Positions 2,785-62,500 of a stretch of DNA of 64,000 nucleotides are shown here, piece after piece. This stretch comes from Pontederia crassipes (Eukaryota > Streptophyta > Magnoliopsida > Commelinales > Pontederiaceae), in the NCBI GenBank assembly GCA_030549335.1, contig CM060187.1:58486203-58550202 (forward strand). The letters are read 5' to 3'. A program made the position numbers and the translations under genes. The stretch's first letter is position 1, and each line of letters opens with the position of its first letter. The notes under the pieces are model-generated. The model saw only the letters and a list, made by a program, of their open reading frames with translations. It searched no databases and was not told the origin of the DNA.

Positions 2785-5700
2785 ATGTATCCGAGTCTGA
2801 GCCGATCCCGGCGCAAGGAGAAGAGCGGGCGGCACGACGAGCTCGTCTCCAGTGGGATCGCGGCGAAACCTGCTCGGAGAAATGGTACGGTTCTTGCTAC
2901 TTCTCGTTTTGAAGGTTTTTCTCTTTTATATATGCTCGAACGTGGGTTTCTTGTGAAGTAAAGGGTTCCGGTACGGGTGTGGTGTTATGAAAGACCGGCA
3001 TTTTCTGTGCAATTTGCCAACTCAGTACTGTGAATTATTAATGTCTGGTATCCTGCTGTTCCACGATGTTAGCTGATATGCAGCTGTTCTTCTTAGTTAA
3101 AGAAATAGGCCCTGCAAGATGAGGAAAACTTAACAATTATGATAATTTTTTGTTTTCCAAATGGTTCTTTTTCCATTGCTGAGTAATAACTGTATGGAGA
3201 GATTTTTTTTCCTTCTCTTTGTTTTGGTTTTGTTTGCCTTATCCTTTGGTAAATTGCTAGTTTTACTTTGACCCACTAATGGGATGATCTGACTTATGTT
3301 GTGCTGGTAGAACTGTGATTTGCGCACTATCACATATTGGGTTATATACTTGTATATGCTGTTTGGATTCACCAGCTACTTTTCGAAGTAGAATGGATTC
3401 GTGCCCTAAATTCTCTTCCTCATGGCATGATTAGGTGATGCTCTTCTATTGTGGTTTAATTTGTTTTGATGATATTTCAGAATGATAGGATGTATGCTAT
3501 CAATCATTTAGGGTCAAAAGGGTTGGTTTTTTGTTAATGGTCCCTGGTTTCCTTTGTCTTGTTTATTTTCTTTCCTGCTTATATTTTGGTTGTAGAGTCT
3601 ACCTCATTTTTCTTCTGCAAATTGGTCTTTATCTGTAAAACTTGCCATCTTTCCTCCCTCTCATTTCCCACTACATTTCTTCACCCTCCTATACTCCGAA
3701 GGCTGACGGGCTATTAGTGTGCTAATCTTCCTTTATTAGTTTTGCTAAAATGTGTCTAGGTAGACAAAGCTCGTTTGCAAGTAATATCATTCCTCTCAAA
3801 GAAGAGGTAATGTATTCTCATTCCACATGGATGTTTGTCGATACGTACCACTGATAGCAGATGCTATCTCTGTTGCCATGCCATCTTATGTGGAAATATG
3901 TTATTTTGACGTTCCTTGGGGCTGCAGGGATATAAATATTGATCAACATCATTTGGTTTATTTTGCAAATGCAATCTAGTTGTACTTTCCATTTGATGAA
4001 CGTCATTTTACATAAATTGGTAATAAGACGAAATTTCTTTTCTTTTTTTCTAGAGAGAGATGAAATCTCTTTCATATGCTTACAAATCCTTTGCGACATT
4101 AACGTTAAGGTAGCTGCAACCAGAGCTCTTTTTTTTTTAACGAGAGCAACCAGAGCTCTTTGTCCAATGTTTATGTGCTTGAAATCTTAGCTAAATTGTA
4201 GTAAAGAATTTCAGCTTGAATGCAAAAATACTATAACATTTGTTTCATTTCATGATTCTGTGGTTCTATTAACTGTATCGTCAATGATCTCTTTTTTCAG
4301 ATAAAGTTCAGTTTGCAAGAGGGAGAAATGAATCAGATATCACGTATGATTCTGTTCATCATGGTGTCTGCACACTGGAAGAAAAATCCGTAATGATCCT
4401 GTTTGACTTATTTATTATCTTTCCATTTACTTTTGAAAAGCTTTTTTTCTCATTCTTGTGATGTTTCTTGAAAGTTAAATTCATAAGAGCTAAAATGCAA
4501 GTTGGTTGAATGACTATAACTAGTGCGATTTCCAGTTTTGAATGACCAAGCCTTCAAGGGATTCCAACTTCGATGAAGAACTGGAGATCCATAATAAAAT
4601 ACACATAAAAAATGGAGATCACATTATTTTAAGATGCTGATATAATGATTTCATTTTCAACAACCATTGGATGTTTGACTTATTTCTGTTAGCAGATTTT
4701 TTACCACAATATTTGACATTGTTTGCCTTTTGTAGGGAGTCACTAACATGAATCAATATTTCTGTGCTTGTAGCTTTCACTTGGTTTCAAAAGGCATTCA
4801 TCAAAGAAGGCAAGCGGGATTCCAATTAAAGCATTAATAGATGAAGAGGTAACAAAAGAGATGGAAACTAAACGTACTTCACCAAGTTTGGTTGCAAGGT
4901 TGATGGGTCTTGATACACTTCCTGCTCAAGCTGTTGATAAGCATGCGAAGCATTTATCTCAGAACATGAACCCTAAAGAGAGCCAAGAATACAAAGATGT
5001 TTTTGAGGTTATGGAGGCATCAAAACTTAAAAAACACAGGAATCAATCGACAAGGAAAGGATTGTTAAGCTCCAAAAGAGCTGAGACTGACATTGATCTT
5101 ATAAGGCAGAAATTCATGGACGCAAAGCGTCTCTCAACTGACGAAGCACTTCAGAGCTCTAAAGAATTAAATGATGCATTGGAAATCTTGGATTCCAACA
5201 AGGATCTTCTTCTAGAATTTCTCCAGGACCCAAAATCTTTATTCACAAAGCATCTCCAAGATCTTAACCATGAGTCATCCTCTCCCGTTCCTGGACAGAT
5301 TACAATATTGAAATCATCTAAAGGTGCCAAATTTGGAGCTACTGAAGTTTGGTTTAGACCGGAAGATAATCATGGAAAATGTTCCCATATACAGAAATAT
5401 GCAACAAACCATGTGGACAGCCATAGACAGAAGTCATCAGTATCTCGATTTACGGACAATACAGAGACCCGTAGTCATGCCACCCACATAGTTGTTCTAA
5501 AGCCAAGTCTTAAAAAGGCTCAAAAGATGGCGGGATCTGTTTCGTTTGGATATGAGAATTTCGATTTTGGCTCCAGAACACAAAAAGAGATACCCAGGGA
5601 AGGAAGAGAAAGGCAGAAATTTTCTACTAATTTGGAACATTCGAACGCCAAAACAAAAGTTTCAAGAGAAATTACAAGACAGGTGCGGCAGAATGTTACT

Positions 5701-23357: not shown

Positions 23358-23431
23358 GACCGCATAGCGCAGTGGATTAGCGCGTCTGACTTCGGATCAG
23401 AAGGTCGTGGGTTCGACTCCCACTGTGGTCG
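23358..23431 (+). tRNA. tRNA-Arg (anticodon TCG)
   Basis: The acceptor stem GACCGCA pairs with TGTGGTC (one G-T). The D-arm contains 'agcgcagtggattagcgc'. The anticodon arm CTGAC-ttcgga-TCAG has anticodon TCG at 23393-23395. The T-arm is GTGGG-ttcgact-CCCAC, with A and B boxes intact. No intron; the discriminator is G. It is encoded without CCA, as usual in nuclear genes. The 3' end coincides exactly with the start of the tandem repeat array. Confidence 0.95.
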
Positions 23432-25544
23432 CTATTTATTATTTTTCCCTTTTTTCAGTTTTTATTTAACTTTTTATAGTAGACACTTCCTTCCTTAGAC
23501 AAAGTTGTTGAGGTGTAATGGATGGTTATTAGACTAAACAGCTCAATAACGAGTCATTCAATAAGTTATCGGACTTGACGCATAACAAGTCAGACATTAT
23601 ATTTCAATAGTGTGTCCAATGTCCGAGGGTATCCGTCCAATATCTATCTATTCATTAACAAATTGTCTGATAGGCTATTTATTATTTTTCCCTTTTTTCA
23701 GTTTTTATTTAACTTTTTATAGTAGACACTTCCTTCTTTAGACAAAGTTGTTGAGGTGTAATGGATGGTTATTAGACTAAACAGCTCAATAACGAGTCAT
23801 TCAATAAGTTATCGGACTCGACGCATAACAAGTCAGTCGCTATTTATTATTTTTCCCTTTTTCAGTTTTTATTTAACTTTTTATAGTAGACACTTCCTTC
23901 CTTAGACAAAGTTGTTGAGGTGTAATGGATGGTTATTAGACTAAACAGCTCAATAACGAGTCATTCAATAAGTTATCGGACTTGACGCATAACAAGTCAG
24001 ACATTATATTTCAATAGTGTGTCCAATGTCCGAGGGTATCCGTCCAATATCTATCTATTCATTAACAAATTGTCTGATAGGCTATTTATTATTTTTCCCT
24101 TTTTTCAGTTTTTATTTAACTTTTTATAGTAGACACTTCCTTCTTTAGACAAAGTTGTTGAGGTGTAATGGATGGTTATTAGACTAAACAGCTCAATAAC
24201 GAGTCATTCAATAAGTTATCGGACTCGACGCATAACAAGTCAGTCGCTATTTATTATTTTTCCCTTTTTCAGTTTTTATTTAACTTTTTATAGTAGACAC
24301 TTCCTTCCTTAGACAAAGTTGTTGAGGTGTAATGGATGGTTATTAGACTAAACAGCTCAATAACGAGTCATTCAATAAGTTATCGGACTTGACGCATAAC
24401 AAGTCAGACATTATATTTCAATAGTGTGTCCAATGTCCGAGGGTATCCGTCCAATATCTATCTATTCATTAACAAATTGTCTGATAGGCTATTTATTATT
24501 TTTCCCTTTTTTCAGTTTTTATTTAACTTTTTATAGTAGACACTTCCTTCTTTAGACAAAGTTGTTGAGGTGTAATGGATGGTTATTAGACTAAACAGCT
24601 CAATAACGAGTCATTCAATAAGTTATCGGACTCGACGCATAACAAGTCAGTCGCTATTTATTATTTTTCCCTTTTTCAGTTTTTATTTAACTTTTTATAG
24701 TAGACACTTCCTTCCTTAGACAAAGTTGTTGAGGTGTAATGGATGGTTATTAGACTAAACAGCTCAATAACGAGTCATTCAATAAGTTATCGGACTTGAC
24801 GCATAACAAGTCAGACATTATATTTCAATAGTGTGTCCAATGTCCGAGGGTATCCGTCCAATATCTATCTATTCATTAACAAATTGTCTGATAGGCTATT
24901 TATTATTTTTCCCTTTTTTCAGTTTTTATTTAACTTTTTATAGTAGACACTTCCTTCTTTAGACAAAGTTGTTGAGGTGTAATGGATGGTTATTAGACTA
25001 AACAGCTCAATAACGAGTCATTCAATAAGTTATCGGACTCGACGCATAACAAGTCAGTCGCTATTTATTATTTTTCCCTTTTTCAGTTTTTATTTAACTT
25101 TTTATAGTAGACACTTCCTTCCTTAGACAAAGTTGTTGAGGTGTAATGGATGGTTATTAGACTAAACAGCTCAATAACGAGTCATTCAATAAGTTATCGG
25201 ACTTGACGCATAACAAGTCAGACATTATATTTCAATAGTTTGTCCAATGTCCGAGGGTATCCGTCCAATATTTATCTATTCATTAACAAATTATCTGATA
25301 GGCTATTTATTATTTTTCCCTTTTTTCAGTTTTTATTTAACTTTTTATAGTAGACACTTCCTTCTTTAGACAAAGTTGTTGAGGTGTAATGGATGGTTAT
25401 TAGACTAAACAGCTCAATAACGAGTCATTCAATAAGTTATCGGACTCGACGCATAACAAGTCAGACATTATATTTCAATAGTTTGTCCAATGTCCGAGGG
25501 TATCCGTCCAATATCTATCTATTCATTAACAAATTGTCTGATAG
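23431..25544 (+). repeat. Dimeric tandem repeat array abutting tRNA-Arg
   Basis: Units all start 'gctatttattatttttccc'. Long units (A): 23431-23673, 23839-24080, 24246-24487, 24653-24894 and 25060-25301 (243, then 242 bp). Short units (B, 165 bp): 23674-23838, 24081-24245, 24488-24652 and 24895-25059. A final B-type unit (25302-25544) keeps the full tail. A and B differ at fixed bases (for example 'ttccttag' against 'ttctttag', and 'ggacttgacg' against 'ggactcgacg'), so the true period is the 407-bp AB dimer. Dimers are almost identical, implying recent amplification. No protein is encoded. Confidence 0.95.
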
Positions 25545-25870
25545 GTCATCCGCTAATAATATTAAGTATTTAAACAAAACTACTTACTTCTTATTATTAT
25601 TTAACTTTTTATAGTATTCATTTCCTTTTTTAGGCAAAGTTGTTGAGGTGTAAGGGGTGGTTATTAGACTAGACAGCTTAATAAGTCATTCAATAAGTTA
25701 TCGGGCTCGACGCATAACAAGTCAGACATTATATTTCAGTAGTTTGCCCGATGTTCGATAGTCCGGTATCCATCCGATATCTATCTATTCACCAACAAAT
25801 TGTCTGATAGGCCATCTGCTAATAATATTAAGTATTTAAACAAAACTAATTACTTATTTAGTGCCTAGCA
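25545..25870 (+). repeat. Degenerate older copy of the tandem unit
   Basis: From about 25590 the sequence again follows the unit ('tttaactttttatagta', 'gttgttgaggtgtaa', 'cgcataacaagtcag', 'aattgtctgatagg') but with many substitutions and small indels. It represents a copy that has escaped homogenisation and marks the old edge of the array. Confidence 0.8.
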
Positions 25871-36016: not shown

Positions 36017-36094
36017 AGAGCGGAATGGCGTCGTATGATCCATGTAGCCGACCCCACCTAGTGGGATAAGGCTTTGTTGTTGTTGTTATTGTTG
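36017..36094 (+). mobile_element. (TTG)-tailed SINE, 5'-truncated (about 78 bp)
   Basis: Starts within the family at 'gagcggaatggcgtcgtatg', runs through 'gatccatgtagccgacccca' and ends in a TTG-rich tail with one TTA variant. No clear target duplication remains. It lies just downstream of the ankyrin gene. Confidence 0.8.
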
Positions 36095-53500: not shown

Positions 53501-56500
53501 TCAGTGCTTATACCTATTTGACAACACATGGAATATATAAGAGTATCTTATCTTTCCCGAGAGGTAAAAGGCATCTTAGTTTTTTAAGGAGGTAAAGTAC
53601 ATCAATAGGTCAAAAACATCTTTGTTTTTATGCAGTAAAAAATATCTTTTTTCTTAAGGGGTAAAGAAAATCTTGTAAGGTCCAAAGTCAGTCTAACAAC
53701 AACAACAAAGCCTTATCCCACTAGGTGGGGTCGGCTAAAAGTCAGTCTAACACTAAACTTAAACAATATGATCAGAACAGCATCCTAAATGCAAAGTACA
53801 ATTGCTTATTACATTTGCAACAATTACTTCATCATAGTCTAGCATACTCCTACTAACAAGAGTTTTAATTCAGCAAAAAGTGCACCTAAAAACTTCTTTC
53901 ATTACACAAAAATACAAAAGTCATACCAAATTCCTCATAGTCAATAATACAACTTAAAAACTGATTAGATTCAGTATATGTACATATTATTCGACTAGTG
54001 AATGCCCCAAAACAAGGAAGCTGGGATACTAAGGGGCCGTTTGGTTCATAGATAAAGTGTGGAATAGCTTCCTATTCTGATGATTATCGCCAAACGGGTA
54101 GCGGATTAAGGTTAAGTCGGTCAACGTACGTTTTCTTTGAAACCACCTTGGAACTCGTGATACCACTATTTTATTCTACAAAACAGCAAGATTTTTATTC
54201 CACCAGAACAAAGGAATAGACATATTCTCACATTTTTCATCTTTTACCATTTCTTTTATTTTTTTATAATTTAACCATATATTATTATTTAATTATTTTT
54301 ATTATAATAACAATAATAAATGTCAATTAGTTATAATAAAATAATTTAATTATAAAATGTAATATATTTAAAAGTTATTCTTTTTCCACCAAACAGAGAA
54401 GAGAATACGAATATGACAAGAATATTATATTCTTCTGAATAATTTTTATTATTCTTCAAAAGTTATTCTTTGTCCAAACGGCCCCTAAAGGCTTGTCTCA
54501 GCCTACAAGAAAGTGTGTTTTAAAACCTAAAATATGATTGAACAGTTTTTTTGTCGAACAAACAGTTTGGTAGCTTCTATAACAAGTAGCAACAATATTA
54601 AGACATTTTTTTGAGAGGGAACAATAATAAGTCATTAAATTGCATACGTCAGGGAATAGCATCATGAATCTCATATTCCAATGGCACTTAGTGACTTACT
54701 AATCGCAACAATGCAAGTTAATCCAACATTCTGCATACAACTCTTTACAACGTCTATTTAAATCTTCTTTCAGAAAGCAATACTAGTTTTTCATTAAACC
54801 CGCTTTGAGATGCCCAAGCATGATTTACAAAATGCATGAAAGGAAACATCCCATGAGTATGAAAGTAAAATGGAGAAAGAACAGTTTAAGACAAAAACAG
54901 ACAAAAGCTATAAAAATAACTTTTTAAATAAGAAACCATGTGAACGGTTGCACATTGCTATAAACAATAACCAATTAGACTCCTTATCCAAAAAGGCAAC
55001 CCTAGCATTGTTAATCAAGTGTGCATAATTCTCAAAAAAAAAATCCAGCATGCACAGAACATCTCTAACAATCCCCTGTTGTGGAGAGCTAATGCCTATA
55101 TTGATCTTTGAACTAAGACAACCTTAAAAACATCCAGCATGCACAGAACATCTGTAACAGTCCCTTGAATTAAGATAACCTCAAAATTTTGAAGAATGAA
55201 AAGTACCTTTTTTAATTCAGCCTCTAAGTCATCTCTTTGCTTTTCAAGTCCAGCAATCTCAGAGTGAAGCTCCTGGTTAAGATTGATAATTAATCAATTG
55301 ACTCTATATAAGATACTAGATCTGGAGATATTAGCAATTCTAGATGAAAGTTGATACAGCACTTTTTTCATGGCAGACGTGCCAACTCCTAAACTAACGG
55401 AAAAGGAAAAATGAACACAAATTTGATGCTTGAATCACTATTACGGATGCCTGCCAAATTATGCTCCATGACTAGGTCATTATCCTTGACTGAAGGAAGA
55501 TCCAGATTTAATGCCAGAAAACACCCCAGAATAGCAGGAGAAAGAGCTTCCCCAGGAGCGAGAACACTGACTCTTAAAACATTGGATGTGACGGCTTCAA
55601 ATGGCAGAAAAATTTAACTACAATGTAACAATAAAAATATTTTCTTACATTTTTGTCGCCCTTGCAAAGAAAAAAAATACGACATTAGGATGCGTTAAAA
55701 CTTGAAAGCAACATAATGATCCGATTAACATGTGAAATAAGACTCTTCATGGCACCGTAACCTTGTAGGACTCATATTTTTATGCATAAATTTGGTTTCT
55801 TTTTGTGGAGCTCAATATGATATCAATGTAACCACAAAAATACTTCATATTAACTACAAAACAGTAAGCATGCAGAGGTATATGCATGTACCTAAAAACA
55901 TCTAAATTGAATGATAAGAAAGGACTAAAGGAAGATGAGATATTTTCTCTCTCCATAACCAACAAAATAGTAAAAAGGGAATTGCTTCAAAGATGCAAGA
56001 AACTCTTCTTAATAACCAGTGTTATGAAAGTACAAAGGTAATAATATTCCCTTATGATAAGTAGAATGGTTGGTACAACATTATGATTGCCCAGTCATGT
56101 AAAAGAGTCATTTCACTCGCAAAGTAAATTTTTACCTGCTCGATATCACCAACTTCCTTGGCCTTGGATACACGAAAATTAAGAGCCTCTTCCTTCTGAT
56201 TCCTGGATATCACAACAGAAATGTAACAGAATACTCAGATCCAAATGGTTCTCAAAATGAAAAGGGCTTTGCTCAGAAGCGCATGTTTATTAGGCAACAA
56301 AAATTCAATGGTTATATCCACATAAGCAATGGTGGATATTCATTACATTGTAGAAATGTTCTGAATAATTCCTCTCACGTAAGAACAAGGGCTCCAATAT
56401 GCGATCAGCAACCTTTGTTCATATAAGATGAAAGATATAATGACACAACATGTTCGGATTCACATTCAAAAGTTTTTTGGATAGGCATGCCGCATGCAAA

Positions 56501-59500
56501 TCTTCGATATCTCAGAAATAACATTCACAAGTATGTGGTAAATTTGCACATGTATCACATATTTATAACAGGGCTTCACATTAGAGGCGTGCATAATCTC
56601 TTCACTTCTTGCAAATTTGATATGACATCTAGAAACTCATTCTGTAATGAATAAGCATTTTCATGTATTAGACTTCTTCAAAATTGCAGATGTTCATATA
56701 GGGTAAAAGGTATTGTATGAATTTTGACCTGTGCTCTAAAATCCGCTTTTCTGCCTTAGAGGAAGAGTTGGCAAGAGATTCAGCAAGAATCTTCAACTTC
56801 TCAACCTAGTTATGGGGAAAAGATTAGCAAAAACAGATATAAAGTTGGCAAAACATGTATGGACTCGTTGATTCATGAATAGAAATAGAAATGCAACATA
56901 AACAAAGAAAAAAAATCAAAATACATGCAAGCCTTTTTCTTTTTTAGAGAGGTTTCTTTTTTGTTTAAGGTGGAAAGGATAACTATTCAATGTCAGTCAC
57001 TACTCCCTATTTATTAATAGAGAGACTTGTACCACATAACAAGCATTCACCCAAATCCTGGACCCCCCATAAATTACTTCATTTAGCTGGACAAATAGCC
57101 TAAAGATAACTTTATTCCACAGAAGACGCTTACTTCCACATATTTAAATGCACAACATAATTTCCAAGGCTAATACAACCAAAACTATAAAGAAGGATGA
57201 TTAGAAAATCTGCAAATATTTACTGTGCATAATCAGAAGTCAGAATTAAAGCAACATTTTAGCATAACTACACATATCAAGATATTCAGTGCCCAAAACA
57301 TTAGCCTTGTTTGTCCATCATTAATTCACTAGATCCGTGTGATATCTCACATATAATTGACTAAAGGTATCATTTGATCTAAAAATAATGAGATCCCCAA
57401 TTTCAGAGCATATCTTCTTAGCCAACAGCACAATAGCATGTTTATCTGAGCTCCCACGTAATAACCGACTCTGCCTCTGCTATTCTAAGGGTCAAATCCA
57501 TTAAGACACCTAAAAGTTAGGCTATAATTTCCTATTTGCCTCAACAGGTAAATGGATATATCATCACTAAAACAAATGTTATATTTATATGACTCTGCCT
57601 CTGTCATTCTAAGGGTCAAACTCATTGTAACACCTATAAGTTAGGCTATAATTGCCTATTTGCCTCAACAGGCAATTCGATAGATCATCATTAAAACAAA
57701 TATTATATTTAACTCTTCTGTAATTTGTCATGCATCTAATGTGCAAACAAAAAAATATCCATAATTCAAGCACAAAAATTTGGAGAAAATTGGAGATTTG
57801 CCTTCTGAGAATGGGCCTCTATAGAGTCCCCACTTCTTATGGTTTTCTTCTTCAACAGCATATCTTCCAGATTAGAGCACAGGCGAACTTCTGACAGAGC
57901 TACTTTCAGATCCTAAAAGACAAAATCATGAAGATAAATCATACAATTTTGTGGAAAAACCATAAATCGTACAGTTCACCAACAGAAAGCTACGTAGAAG
58001 AGAACGAAACAATATGTGAAACATCTCCTCAAAAAAAGCAATATATGAAACAATTTGCATTACGAACTGGATAAGGTAAAATAAAATAAAACGATGAGCT
58101 AATATACAGGTAATTTGTGGTCTTCACACCTTAGCTTAACAACAAATATTCTTAGCTTATCAATTTGCAACACATTTTACATTGGAGAGGACATGAAAGA
58201 GCAAACTTTTTCCATCCTGTCAGTCTATCCAACTGACTCTAATACTCTATCATCTTATGCTTAAATCAATCCATAACCCGATGGGCTGACCAAAATTTAG
58301 AGCAACCAACTTGCAGTATTAACATAAGCACAACAACAATATGTACCCATTCAAACTACCCAGTCCTTGTCGACATCCATCCCAACTCATTCAACTCTAC
58401 TTCAACAACCCAAAAAAACTCTACTTGAACAATGTAGCTTATCGTCGTAACATCTTGAGTTTCCTCACCATGTCTCTAACACTCAATTTTCTTCAATCCT
58501 AGACAAAGTAGATTAAATCTTCCTAATTGGTATCCGTTTCATTCTTTTTTGAGGGAATATCCATTCTATGATGCACAATGCACATAATATATAGCGTTGA
58601 TCAACTCCATAATGTAAAACATAATATTGGGTTTGGTTGTGATGTGAACTTGAAATTGTTAGAATGCATTAGGTCAATCACAAGAATACTAGCTAAAGAA
58701 TACTGTTAGATATAGGCGGTCTCCTCCTATATCTTAGAATACTAGCAGTTACATATGAAAAGACACAAGATCTAGCTAAAGAATTACAATCTGTTGGGTG
58801 CGGGGATTTGGATGTAGAAGGTAACCACTTTCATATTGGATCAATTTTTTTGTTTTTTTCATCTTGATATCTAAGGCCATGTTACCATCACTTCCCCAAT
58901 ATTACCAAGTAGGACTGTGTAGGATGTTCTGTTATATTTTACTCTGGCGTTACTAGAGCTTATAACTTTTGTTCATAGAAATTTTTTTATCTTTAATCTA
59001 AAAAACTTGAACTCTGTAACACAGCATTTTCTAATTCAGAATAGGCTGCTTTGATTTTACAATTTGTCTGCAAGAATATGAAATACCAACATTAATTTGA
59101 TTACAGATATGAGGTTAAATTGCCAATTGATGACAGAAGATTCATTGTGAAGTTAGAGCAACATATTTTATTTATGTTTATTTTTCCTGAGCCTCATGGA
59201 CACTTGTCAACTAATGCCATGAATACCTGCTTACATGTGTTGTTCCGTTTCATTTTTTAGCATTTTTTTAGTTTTCCTTTGTTGCAAAAGCTACTTTTTA
59301 TTCTCTAAAAAAATGCTACGTTTATTGTCCTGTTACAGACCTTTCTTCGCCTTTATTCTCTAAAAAAACTCCGCCTATGTTTTATAGCCGGTCTCAAGTC
59401 CGGATAAAGGAGGAGGGTTGTGTTAGGCCCCGACAGCCAGCGTAAAACCCTGTCGAATCTCATGAACATGGATCAACGAATATGGCGTCGTATGATCCAT

Positions 59501-62500
59501 GTAGCCGACCCCACCTAGTGGGATAAGGCTTTGTTGTTGTTGTTGTTGCATTAGGTCAATCACGTAAGGACCTTTGAATGTTCTGCATTCATAAAATCTT
59601 ATTTAAAATAATCCTGGGTGTGAAATTGACATAAATTCACACAGCGTAAGACCACAACTGCTTTATTGGAGGAAAAAAGGATGATTAGAAAGAATTTATC
59701 ACTAGGTATGTAACCAGGAAACATAACAATGATAAATAAAATTAAAGAAATGAGCTTATATGCATGATTGATTGTTTTCAGTAATCTTTTCCAAGAGCAG
59801 CAACATATCTTTTTGAAAAAAAAAAAACACAAGATTTACCTCTACAGAACCAAGTTTTGCCTTTTCATCATAGTCTGCACCTGAAATAGCTTGCAATGTG
59901 GTTATCTTAGGTCGTAATTTTGAGACTTCAGATTCTAACCTGAAATCAACATGAATCAGAACTGAGAATAGTTCATGCCTATCCATCCTTGGAACAGGAG
60001 CTACTACCAATTAATTGACAGAAGACTTGTGCGGATCATTTTTTACTTCATACATATGACAAACTATTGATTTTAACATGTAACCCAACTTCTTACTTTA
60101 GATGAAATCCTCCTCTTTTGTATATAAAAAATCAAATAACTAGATGCTGCTACCCTAACATAGATAGATAGTAGTACACAAACATATACATAGTATAAAC
60201 ACAATGGGTCTAATATAGGTGTGGCATCCTTCAGATGCTACAATGTCTAGCATATTCCTATCAGCTGTCAATTAAGCTAATGATTGATCTGAAGTTATTA
60301 TGCAGTGCAACATTCAATGAACAATATGCCTATATTTTCCCCCCATACATTTGTGGATCAATACATATTTACTATTGCAACAGCTGCACAAAATACTCGA
60401 CTCCAAGGCAGGTCGAGTGCATACAACACAATCCATGTCCTGACATAGTGATTTTTTCAAGGGGATGGTAGTCATAAGTTAGCAAAAAACTCCGAACAAC
60501 TACATGGTGCAAGTAAAGGATGATCATTATTAGAAGAAATGCATAAGATGAAAAGAATTTCCATGTTCGTACAGTTTTTCTTGATTTTCTAAATGAATAT
60601 TTTTGCCCAACAAGGAAAAACATCAATCAAGGCACTCTAACTTTTCACCTTAAGACTTCTGCATTTATTTTCAGTCCTGAAATTGCAGCTTGAGCAAACT
60701 GAAGAAGCTCCTCACGCTTAACCTGAAAAATAAATGGATGTCACAAGAGCCATCAAGTATATGCTTAAGTGAAATACTTGTTTTCAAATTAAAATCCACA
60801 AAGCATGCCTAAATTATCTTTACTTATAGACACAGCACACTAAGAGCTAAAGAAAAATGCTAATTTTCCTCGGTAATGGGAAAAATAGTCGTTTAACAAA
60901 ATTGTGCAATTAGCCAACCCCACCTAGTGGGATAAGGCTTTGTTGTTGTTGTTAACAAAATTGTGCAATAAGATAACAAGCAAACTGTGGTGAATTGCCC
61001 CTAAAGACATAAAGTAAACGATTATTGTGTCCAAAATGCTAATCAAAGTTAGTGATCATCAAGCAACGAATAAGAAAGAATATATCGTACAAGAAGTCAG
61101 AAACAATAAGCGAATATCAGCAAATTGCAATTTCAACATTTTCACATGAGCTTATCACATGCCAGGAGTTAATGAAAAGTTTAATGAATAATTAGTAAAT
61201 AAATTAAATAATGTAGATTTAAGAAGTAAAAAGAACAGATTCCATAGCGAAATAAAAGAAAAAAATGACGAGATATATACCAAAACTTCATCCTCGTAAT
61301 TCGAGAATGCTTTTGCCAGGTCTTGTATGCTACTCATAATTGCATCATGAACTTCCTTTCCTCCTGTAAGACAGATTCTGCACATCATCAACCAAAATAT
61401 TAATTTGAGTTACAAACTCATTAGCTCCAGAATGTTAATTTGTAAAGAAATGTCAAAAGAAAGCAAAAGCGAAGTTTAAAAGAAATAGAGAGACCACACA
61501 GTGCATAACTGTGAACCTAAATGTTAAAGATCTAACTTCGAGAAGCATATAACTTATATGGAACTATGGATGTGAAAGTTTTTAGGGACAAATGAAACTT
61601 TGAAGTTCCAGTAAAGACTATTAGGACCTACTGCCGCGGGATAAGTAACCATGAAATTAACAAAGTCACATTTCCGGAGATATGCATGATCTTTCAAGGC
61701 ATATTTAAGGTTGGAGATTAAACTTTGCACTGCCCTGTGATGAAGTAACCAAGGAAACTTTACAAAACAGGAATATAATTGCATGCACTAATTCCTGTGA
61801 TCACTTTCGATTTTCAGATAATAATTATAAATCCAATCATGTTAGAGCTCAACAACAACAACAAAGCATTATCCCACTAGGTGGGGTCAGCTACATGTTA
61901 GAGCTCATCAAGATTTTTTTTTTTTGCGAAATTTTCAAGTACTTGGTGGTTTGGTTTGCTATGATCGCCGTAGGAAGAGTAGCTAACTGGATCTCGGACA
62001 ACTCACCAAAGCACAAAAGCCAAGATCATTCACAAAATGGATTACCAATTTGAAGAGTGCATAGAAATTTGATAAAGCTGAACTTTTGTGAATTTCCTTT
62101 TCAACCACACCACAAGATTAATCAGTCGAATTCCAAAGATGTAGCATGATCTAGGGAAACTTCTCAAAGCTACTATTTCAACCAATGCACACATGGATCA
62201 AACATAAACCTACAAGATGTTTCCAAGAATCAACACCTCCATAACGGAGGAGAACATAGCATCACATTTATGACATACTCATCACAATATATAACAAAAG
62301 GAAAGGTTTGTGGAAATAACAGTATAAAAGAAGTAAAAAGTGTTTGTAGACCCACCCAAAAATCTCCAAGAGCAAAGAAACTTCTTCATCATTTGGAGCT
62401 TCAATAATCTGAGTCACAGAAAAGAGTTAACCTGTGGTTAACTTCCATGATCAGCAAGAAAAAACTACCATCAGAGTACACTAAAAAAACAGAGTATAGT

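Follow-up and report, generated by a model that had tools for sequence, protein, structure and literature searches.

A SEC10-SINE fusion present at two sites in Pontederia crassipes and its probable origin by a process like 5' transduction

Introduction

At one locus of Pontederia crassipes, 685 bp of other sequence and a SINE are enclosed together by one target-site duplication. How did the two come to be inserted together? The element may have been the end of a longer RNA, two RNAs may have been joined before or during copying, or two insertions may lie side by side. A preliminary description of the locus called SINE-driven 5' transduction, the first of these, rarely documented in plants. 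A 2026 review (PMC13317346) agrees, stating that no 5' transduction has been reported from plants. Literature searches of open-licence papers, some of which returned mostly unrelated papers, recognised no plant case.

The window, meaning the whole 64,000-nucleotide stretch of DNA that was analysed, is C5:58486203-58550202 in a 1.13-Gb assembly. Contigs of this assembly pair by matching (C5/C6, C7/C8, C11/C12), as would be expected for an allotetraploid plant.

Structure of the insert

The direct repeat GCATTAGGTCAATCAC has 16-bp copies at 58666-58681 and 59548-59563. With the preceding T its length is 17 bp, but the extra T is ambiguous with the TTG tail. Between the copies lie 865-866 bp, whose 3' end is a full-length (TTG)-tailed SINE, taken here to be Au-like. 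The preliminary description had proposed a 16-bp duplication around 866 bp, a complete tailed SINE at the 3' end and no separate duplication for that SINE. All three proposals held, and no duplication was found next to the SINE start. Rfam searches of the window at the gathering threshold returned one tRNA and nothing else. The parts of the insert are:

58665..58681, + strand: left target-site duplication, 17 bp (16 bp without the first T); a single copy stands at the empty C6 site
58682..58713, + strand: 5' filler, 32 nt, in part a second copy of SEC10 exon sequence of the insert itself (13 nt identical to 58772-58784; equally good shuffles 0.2-0.3%)
58714..58729, + strand: end of SEC10 exon A, 16 nt, from donor comparison
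58730..58820, + strand: SEC10 exon B, 91 nt, joined to exon A with the donor's 93-nt intron removed, from donor comparison and the Pfam Sec10_HB match of the spliced donor frame
58821..59348, + strand: retained SEC10 intron, 528 of 544 nt, ending 16 nt before the 3' splice site, from donor comparison
59349..59366, + strand: junction filler, 18 nt, GCC plus a copy of intron sequence 55 nt upstream (59297-59313), identical in the C8 copy
59367..59533, + strand: SINE body, full-length, Au-like, with 65 nt of its 3' end shared with a LINE
59534..59546, + strand: (TTG)n tail, read from the sequence
59547..59563, + strand: right target-site duplication, from the repeat pair

The SINE start was placed at about 59367 (AACTCCGCC) from other copies whose duplication abuts that start: in most full-length copies read, the duplication stops directly 5' of (A)ACTCCGCC. 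The stretch 59352-59368 is an exact repeat of 59297-59313 and corresponds to the junction filler. At the 3' side, the terminal 65 nt of the SINE match the 3' end of a LINE of this genome, for example in L056, at 98.5% identity. The element therefore has both a TTG tail and a 3' end common to a partner LINE, as an Au SINE should, and this identity makes the enzyme of that LINE the natural candidate for the machinery involved. Pfam and PDB searches of the reading frames of the partner LINE gave nothing useful on its clade.

The preliminary description also suggested comparison with an empty site. The homoeologous site on C6 is such a site: it has the same surrounding sequence, exactly one copy of the 17 bp and no insert. 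The whole 865 bp therefore came in through a single insertion event.

Origin of the upstream part

In a genome search the 685-bp segment was found at five other places. The closest match is at C11:9763988 (99%), followed by C8:57973103 (98%), where a SINE comes directly after it. A 191-bp match lies on C12 (96%), and two matches of about 165 bp each lie at C8:69381192 and C7:8645902 (80-81%). At the C11 locus three exons, the middle one of 91 nt, are separated by two GT...AG introns, the first of 93 nt and the second of 544 nt. After splicing, the reading frame of the locus scores 36.6 bits against Pfam Sec10_HB (E 2.6e-9, cut-off 26), and by this match the donor on C11 is identified as an exocyst SEC10 gene. 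The 93-nt intron has been precisely removed from both the C5 and the C8 copies, and the intron after it is retained up to a point 16 nt short of its 3' splice site. Judged from this pattern, the copied molecule is an RNA, spliced at one intron and unspliced at the next. The carried sequence thus bears the mark of an RNA intermediate, though not that of a processed retrocopy: one intron is retained and the tail is the TTG of the SINE. The upstream part is indeed not SINE sequence, as the preliminary description had it in calling these 685 bp unrelated, but it is not one foreign block either, being composed of spliced SEC10 exon sequence, retained SEC10 intron and two fillers.

In the assembled C11 locus the donor junction (C11:9764606) is without a SINE; two partial SINE/LINE 3' ends are located about 840 and 1640 nt downstream.

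A second copy with the same junction

The SEC10-SINE junction, filler included, is identical letter for letter in the C5 and C8 copies. The duplication on C8 is not cleanly readable, as the site is an AT repeat, and the homoeologous site on C7 lacks the insert, which rules out C8 as an unmoved source locus. The SEC10 parts differ at 7/616 sites between C5 and C8, 4/619 between C5 and C11 and 5/616 between C8 and C11; so few differences indicate that all three sequences are recent. Private changes of C5 are missing from C8, and those of C8 from C5. One junction at two sites implies a fusion encoded in DNA: by this comparison a DNA form of the SEC10-SINE fusion must have preceded at least one of the two insertions.

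Several more specific relationships between the two copies were considered and rejected. If C5 had been derived from C8 together with C8 flank, the 32-nt filler should match that flank, but it is not convincingly matched there (left p 0.086, right p 0.064) and matches the insert's own exon. The sole candidate for a derived change shared by the C5 and C8 SEC10 parts is ancestral, since C12 has the same base. In the SINE part C8 and C5 differ at 8/172 sites, against 7/616 in the SEC10 part (p 0.007). That C8 carries another SINE subfamily was rejected as the reason: of its seven specific changes five occur in 1/44 copies and two in 2/44, and divergence is more likely.

Further fusions among SINE copies

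A genome search gave 36 other SINE places (three short fragments were excluded), of which 25 were read. The places were ranked by similarity to the present SINE, so they represent young copies and not a random sample. The duplication lies at most 7 nt from the SINE start in 14 of the 25 loci. Two others (L041, L054) have a filler of about 40 nt, two (L042, L043) a tandem SINE pair that is seemingly duplicated, and two (L006, L047) are fusions with gene or low-copy sequence for which donors were identified. The remaining five were left unsettled by the duplication scan.

The second fusion (L006, C6:51975865-51976841) has a 19-bp duplication enclosing 761 nt of low-copy sequence and then the SINE, the two joined directly. 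Its homoeologous site on C5 is empty, with one copy of the repeat in which one base is changed. Three related places (C17, C18, C17; 95, 95, 92%) had no SINE match in the stretch read.

The third fusion (L047, C9:2635701-2637045) has a 17-bp duplication and 1.1 kb 5' of the SINE. Its donor is a tubulin binding cofactor A (TBCA) gene (Pfam TBCA E 1.1e-15; PDB 3mxz E 1.5e-23), and the carried part is the 5' region of the gene, whose end lies some 100 nt 5' of the start codon and, as judged by eye, probably within a 5'UTR intron. A second TBCA fusion (L063 on C11) has the same junction, its own 21-bp duplication and a shorter 5' end; this common junction indicates that the TBCA fusion, too, existed as DNA. 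Substitutions common to the C9 and C11 copies and missing from C4 and C3, seen by eye in an alignment, also point to a common DNA intermediate. The TBCA junction is without a SINE on both C4 and C3; in the C3 locus a SINE lies at a distance of over 1 kb. Upstream host sequence and element lie within one target duplication in the C5 insert, in L006 and in the TBCA fusions.

Among the unsettled loci, L048 has 126 bp directly 5' of the SINE, and no duplication was found there. This joined form occurs at six places, L048 included, with 97-100% identity, and the 126-bp sequence is also present at a seventh. Some of the six (two on C17; those on C3 and C4) may be copies of one insertion. In L051 the 190 bp directly 5' of the SINE match C15 at 98%. 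The L052 duplication scan gave a 13-bp match 2.1 kb away, and the segment is a mosaic of repeats also found at C4:6380274. Two loci were dismissed as fusions: the 10-bp match of L056 falls within a LINE fragment, and the flank of L007 is ordinary and common to C6.

Junction fillers and nick sites

In the filler between SEC10 and the SINE, 16 nt are an exact copy of SEC10 intron sequence 55 nt upstream, and 0/300 shuffles gave a match as long. Four ordinary SINE insertions with filler were tested for a template in the same way. The left target flank was the template of two of these fillers, with exact matches of 11 and 14 nt (0/300 shuffles as long); measured back from the end of the duplication, the sources begin at 100 and 45 nt. 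The other two are mainly SINE-templated, one of them also having a weaker left-flank match (10 nt, p 0.03). From these letters, the SEC10-SINE junction looks like an ordinary SINE integration.

A nick-site model was built from 41 duplications (65 element ends were examined and 5 of 46 duplications dropped); its feature is a stretch rich in T that precedes the duplication by about 5-11 nt. Log-likelihood ratios of 1.05, 2.64 and 2.21 bits were obtained at the three donor junctions, with p values against window positions of 0.132, 0.064 and 0.079. The combined p of 0.023 (0.024 in an earlier version without length prior) comes from a post hoc test, as the motif was first noticed by eye, and from a training set that includes the fusions' own target sites. 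The fit of the SEC10 junction alone is weak (p 0.13). Taken together, the fit at donor junctions modestly favours transduction.

At the 5' ends, SEC10 sequence upstream of the exon-exon junction is kept for 16 nt in C5 and 17-18 nt in C8. Exon junction complexes sit about 24-27 nt upstream of such junctions, according to the available part of one paper (PMC10630996), which would place the 3' edge of the complex near the stopping point of the enzyme. That such a complex halted the reverse transcriptase is only an idea, drawn from one exon in two copies. The 32-nt 5' filler of C5 shares an exact 13-nt run with the insert's own exon (p 0.003). That of C9, 53 nt long, shares an exact 16-nt run with its own element (0/300) and also has a 12-nt match to the left flank (p 0.013). 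By these matches, both fillers show a template that was re-copied at the end of synthesis.

Proposed mechanism and alternatives

The insert is probably a retrotransposed SEC10/SINE fusion RNA that behaves like a SINE 5' transduction. In an allele outside this assembly, the SEC10 intron would earlier have received an Au-like SINE, 16 nt short of the 3' splice site. Introns tolerate SINEs, and the SEC10 part ends within an intron. In the pre-mRNA of that allele the upstream intron would have been spliced and the SINE-bearing intron kept. The enzyme of the partner LINE would have recognised the SINE 3' end inside the fusion RNA, so that copying would begin at a new nick from the TTG tail, internal to the longer RNA. 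It would then pass through the SINE into SEC10 and halt 16-18 nt upstream of the exon-exon junction. The SEC10-SINE RNA would have been retrotransposed at least twice. The preliminary description had read the locus as one target-primed event with a longer RNA that ended in the SINE, and this reading agrees with the duplication around the whole insert, the empty site, the spliced junction and the second insertion with the same junction. Chimeric transcripts at a low level from wheat introns that contain Au SINE (PMC5787218) also speak for it.

The chief competitor is template switching, which we consider less likely. The LINE enzyme would have copied a SINE RNA to its 5' end and jumped to a partly spliced (nascent) SEC10 RNA, and the first insertion would later have been transcribed and re-copied into a second site. 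In its favour, the SINE part of the fusions is complete at its 5' end, fillers at other ends show an enzyme able to re-copy its template, and LINE-driven chimeras of this kind, some of them with a SINE, are described in a Magnaporthe study (PMC2104539). The reference donors for SEC10, the second fusion and TBCA, moreover, all lack a SINE at the junction, which counts against transduction, as do the two ordinary fillers with mainly SINE templates and the near-identical 5' ends of C5 and C8, which need a special stop. As to the junctions by which a switch may be judged, that of SEC10 has 18 nt of templated filler and that of the second fusion is direct. However, two of the three fusion types were inserted twice with one junction, which supports transduction and, under switching, demands a second round from a copy without a known promoter. 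The SEC10-SINE filler would require two jumps on the same RNA, and the donor junctions fit the nick-site model modestly above chance. Transduction is favoured because one junction is present at two sites and looks like ordinary SINE integration, with a left-flank-templated filler and the nick-motif test on the same side. The preliminary description had proposed that a donor without a SINE would support switching; the C11 donor is such a donor, but a junction that recurs at two sites requires a fusion encoded in DNA, and the balance shifts to transduction. Nor do SINE-less assembled donors exclude it, because source elements are also missing from the donor genes in examples of human LINE-1 5' transduction, where the available part of the report has a lost allele as one of the authors' options (PMC13174262). 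A SINE 16 nt before the SEC10 splice site may have been harmful and hence lost. In none of the assembled donors does the element stand directly downstream of the carried sequence; the process is therefore claimed to work like 5' transduction and is not filed as a proven case.

Joining of two RNAs by ligation or trans-splicing, followed by retrotransposition of the product, is improbable. For LINE-1, chimeras with an exact joint at an RNA end have been described, and trans-splicing is discussed in the same report (PMC13174262), but the SEC10 sequence does not stop at a splice donor, the parts are separated by 18 nt of templated filler, and one joined RNA would not suffice for two insertions with the same junction unless one was re-copied. 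Least credible of all are two independent events, a SEC10 retrocopy and a SINE landing beside it. Nested insertions are common in plant genomes, but a single duplication surrounds the whole, the C6 site is exactly empty and the same compound occurs at a second, unrelated site on C8; this explanation was rejected on the empty C6 site and the C8 copy.

Implications

One plant genome thus contains three independent fusions of a SINE with gene or low-copy sequence for which donors were found, two of them inserted twice, and two insertions (the C5 insert and L006) have an exact empty homoeologous site. SINEs can therefore shift gene fragments about a plant genome. A broader proposal, put forward tentatively and with more doubt than confidence, is that host pre-mRNAs are repeatedly made mobile by SINEs landing in introns, the resulting gene-SINE RNAs being re-inserted more than once, and that some fusions give rise to new SINE lineages, such as the form headed by 126 bp at six places. 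Should this hold generally, SINEs, being short and frequent in the vicinity of genes, would be an overlooked route for relocating exons, introns and 5' regions, and their fusions a route to the birth of new SINE families. As the source alleles are predicted, the mechanism is directly testable by genotyping.

Relation to known systems

A close parallel is the 5' transduction of mRNAs and lncRNAs by human LINE-1 (PMC13174262). There, too, gene RNA stands at the 5' end of a near-complete element within one target duplication, the gene part is spliced and no source element was found in the donor gene. LINE-1 is autonomous, belongs to primates and has a poly(A) tail, and several of its fusions end at splice donors. 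The present case differs in having a plant SINE with a TTG tail, an intron-internal end with templated filler and two insertions with one junction. SVA 5' transduction, in the portion of the review available (PMC13317346), shares a non-autonomous element with upstream host sequence and the amplification of some groups, but SVA is a primate element.

The MGL LINE and Mg-SINE chimeras of Magnaporthe, in the part of that study available (PMC2104539), are likewise LINE-driven transcript fusions, one with 14-bp duplications and some with a SINE. They were interpreted as template switches without microhomology at GCC sites, and they combine LINE, SINE and non-coding RNA, with no spliced coding-gene RNA that retains an intron. 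The wheat Au SINE, in the available part of the work on it (PMC5787218), is a plant SINE of recent activity, present within introns and also in chimeric transcripts of genes, its intronic copies occurring in such transcripts at a low level. Those are transcripts of resident insertions, whereas the fusions in Pontederia crassipes are gene-SINE sequences that were re-inserted.

SEC10-SINE fusions and the sites around them

The SINE part of the SEC10-SINE fusion on C8 (L009 2755-2930) has accumulated 7 changes, all of them transitions, against 1 in the C5 fusion, and it is more changed than its SEC10 part would predict (p 0.007). The SEC10 intron on C11 (the donor locus, L010) exceeds its C12 homoeolog (L011) by several hundred nt, and this extra stretch falls within the piece carried by the SINE fusion. 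At the C6 homoeolog of the insertion site (L019) a separate SINE lies in the flank on the opposite strand (2172-2364); none is found in the window's flank there. Elsewhere in the window (23358-25858) a tandem array of ~407-bp units, ~99% identical to one another, comes immediately after a tRNA-Arg (TCG) gene.

Further SINEs joined to other sequences

An Au-like SINE joined to a 126-bp head was found at six places in the genome with 97-100% identity:

C15:3522367-3522672 (L048:2371-2676), headed SINE
C17:3573243, headed SINE
C17:9390966, headed SINE
C9:9601324, headed SINE
C4:2485117, headed SINE
C3:18584677, headed SINE

The 5' start of the head agrees within 3 nt in five of these, and head and SINE together possibly constitute a new composite SINE lineage. 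One more possible fusion is L051, with its SINE at C6:6071013-6071193; the 190 bp immediately 5' of it are a 98% match to C15:5112753-5112942.

The likely partner LINE

The last 65 nt of one LINE in the genome match the SINE at 98.5%, and this LINE is likely the partner of the SINE. 3' ends of it are located at:

window 36018-36094, LINE 3' end
L056 (a further SINE locus) near 3449-3889, minus strand, LINE 3' end
L009 near 959, LINE 3' end
L010 near 6251, LINE 3' end

The window also contains very short elements consisting of just the last 40-50 nt common to SINE and LINE:

window 53690-53737, short 3'-end element
window 60911-60957, short 3'-end element
window 61846-61897, short 3'-end element

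Each of the three has a 14-18 bp duplication of its own.
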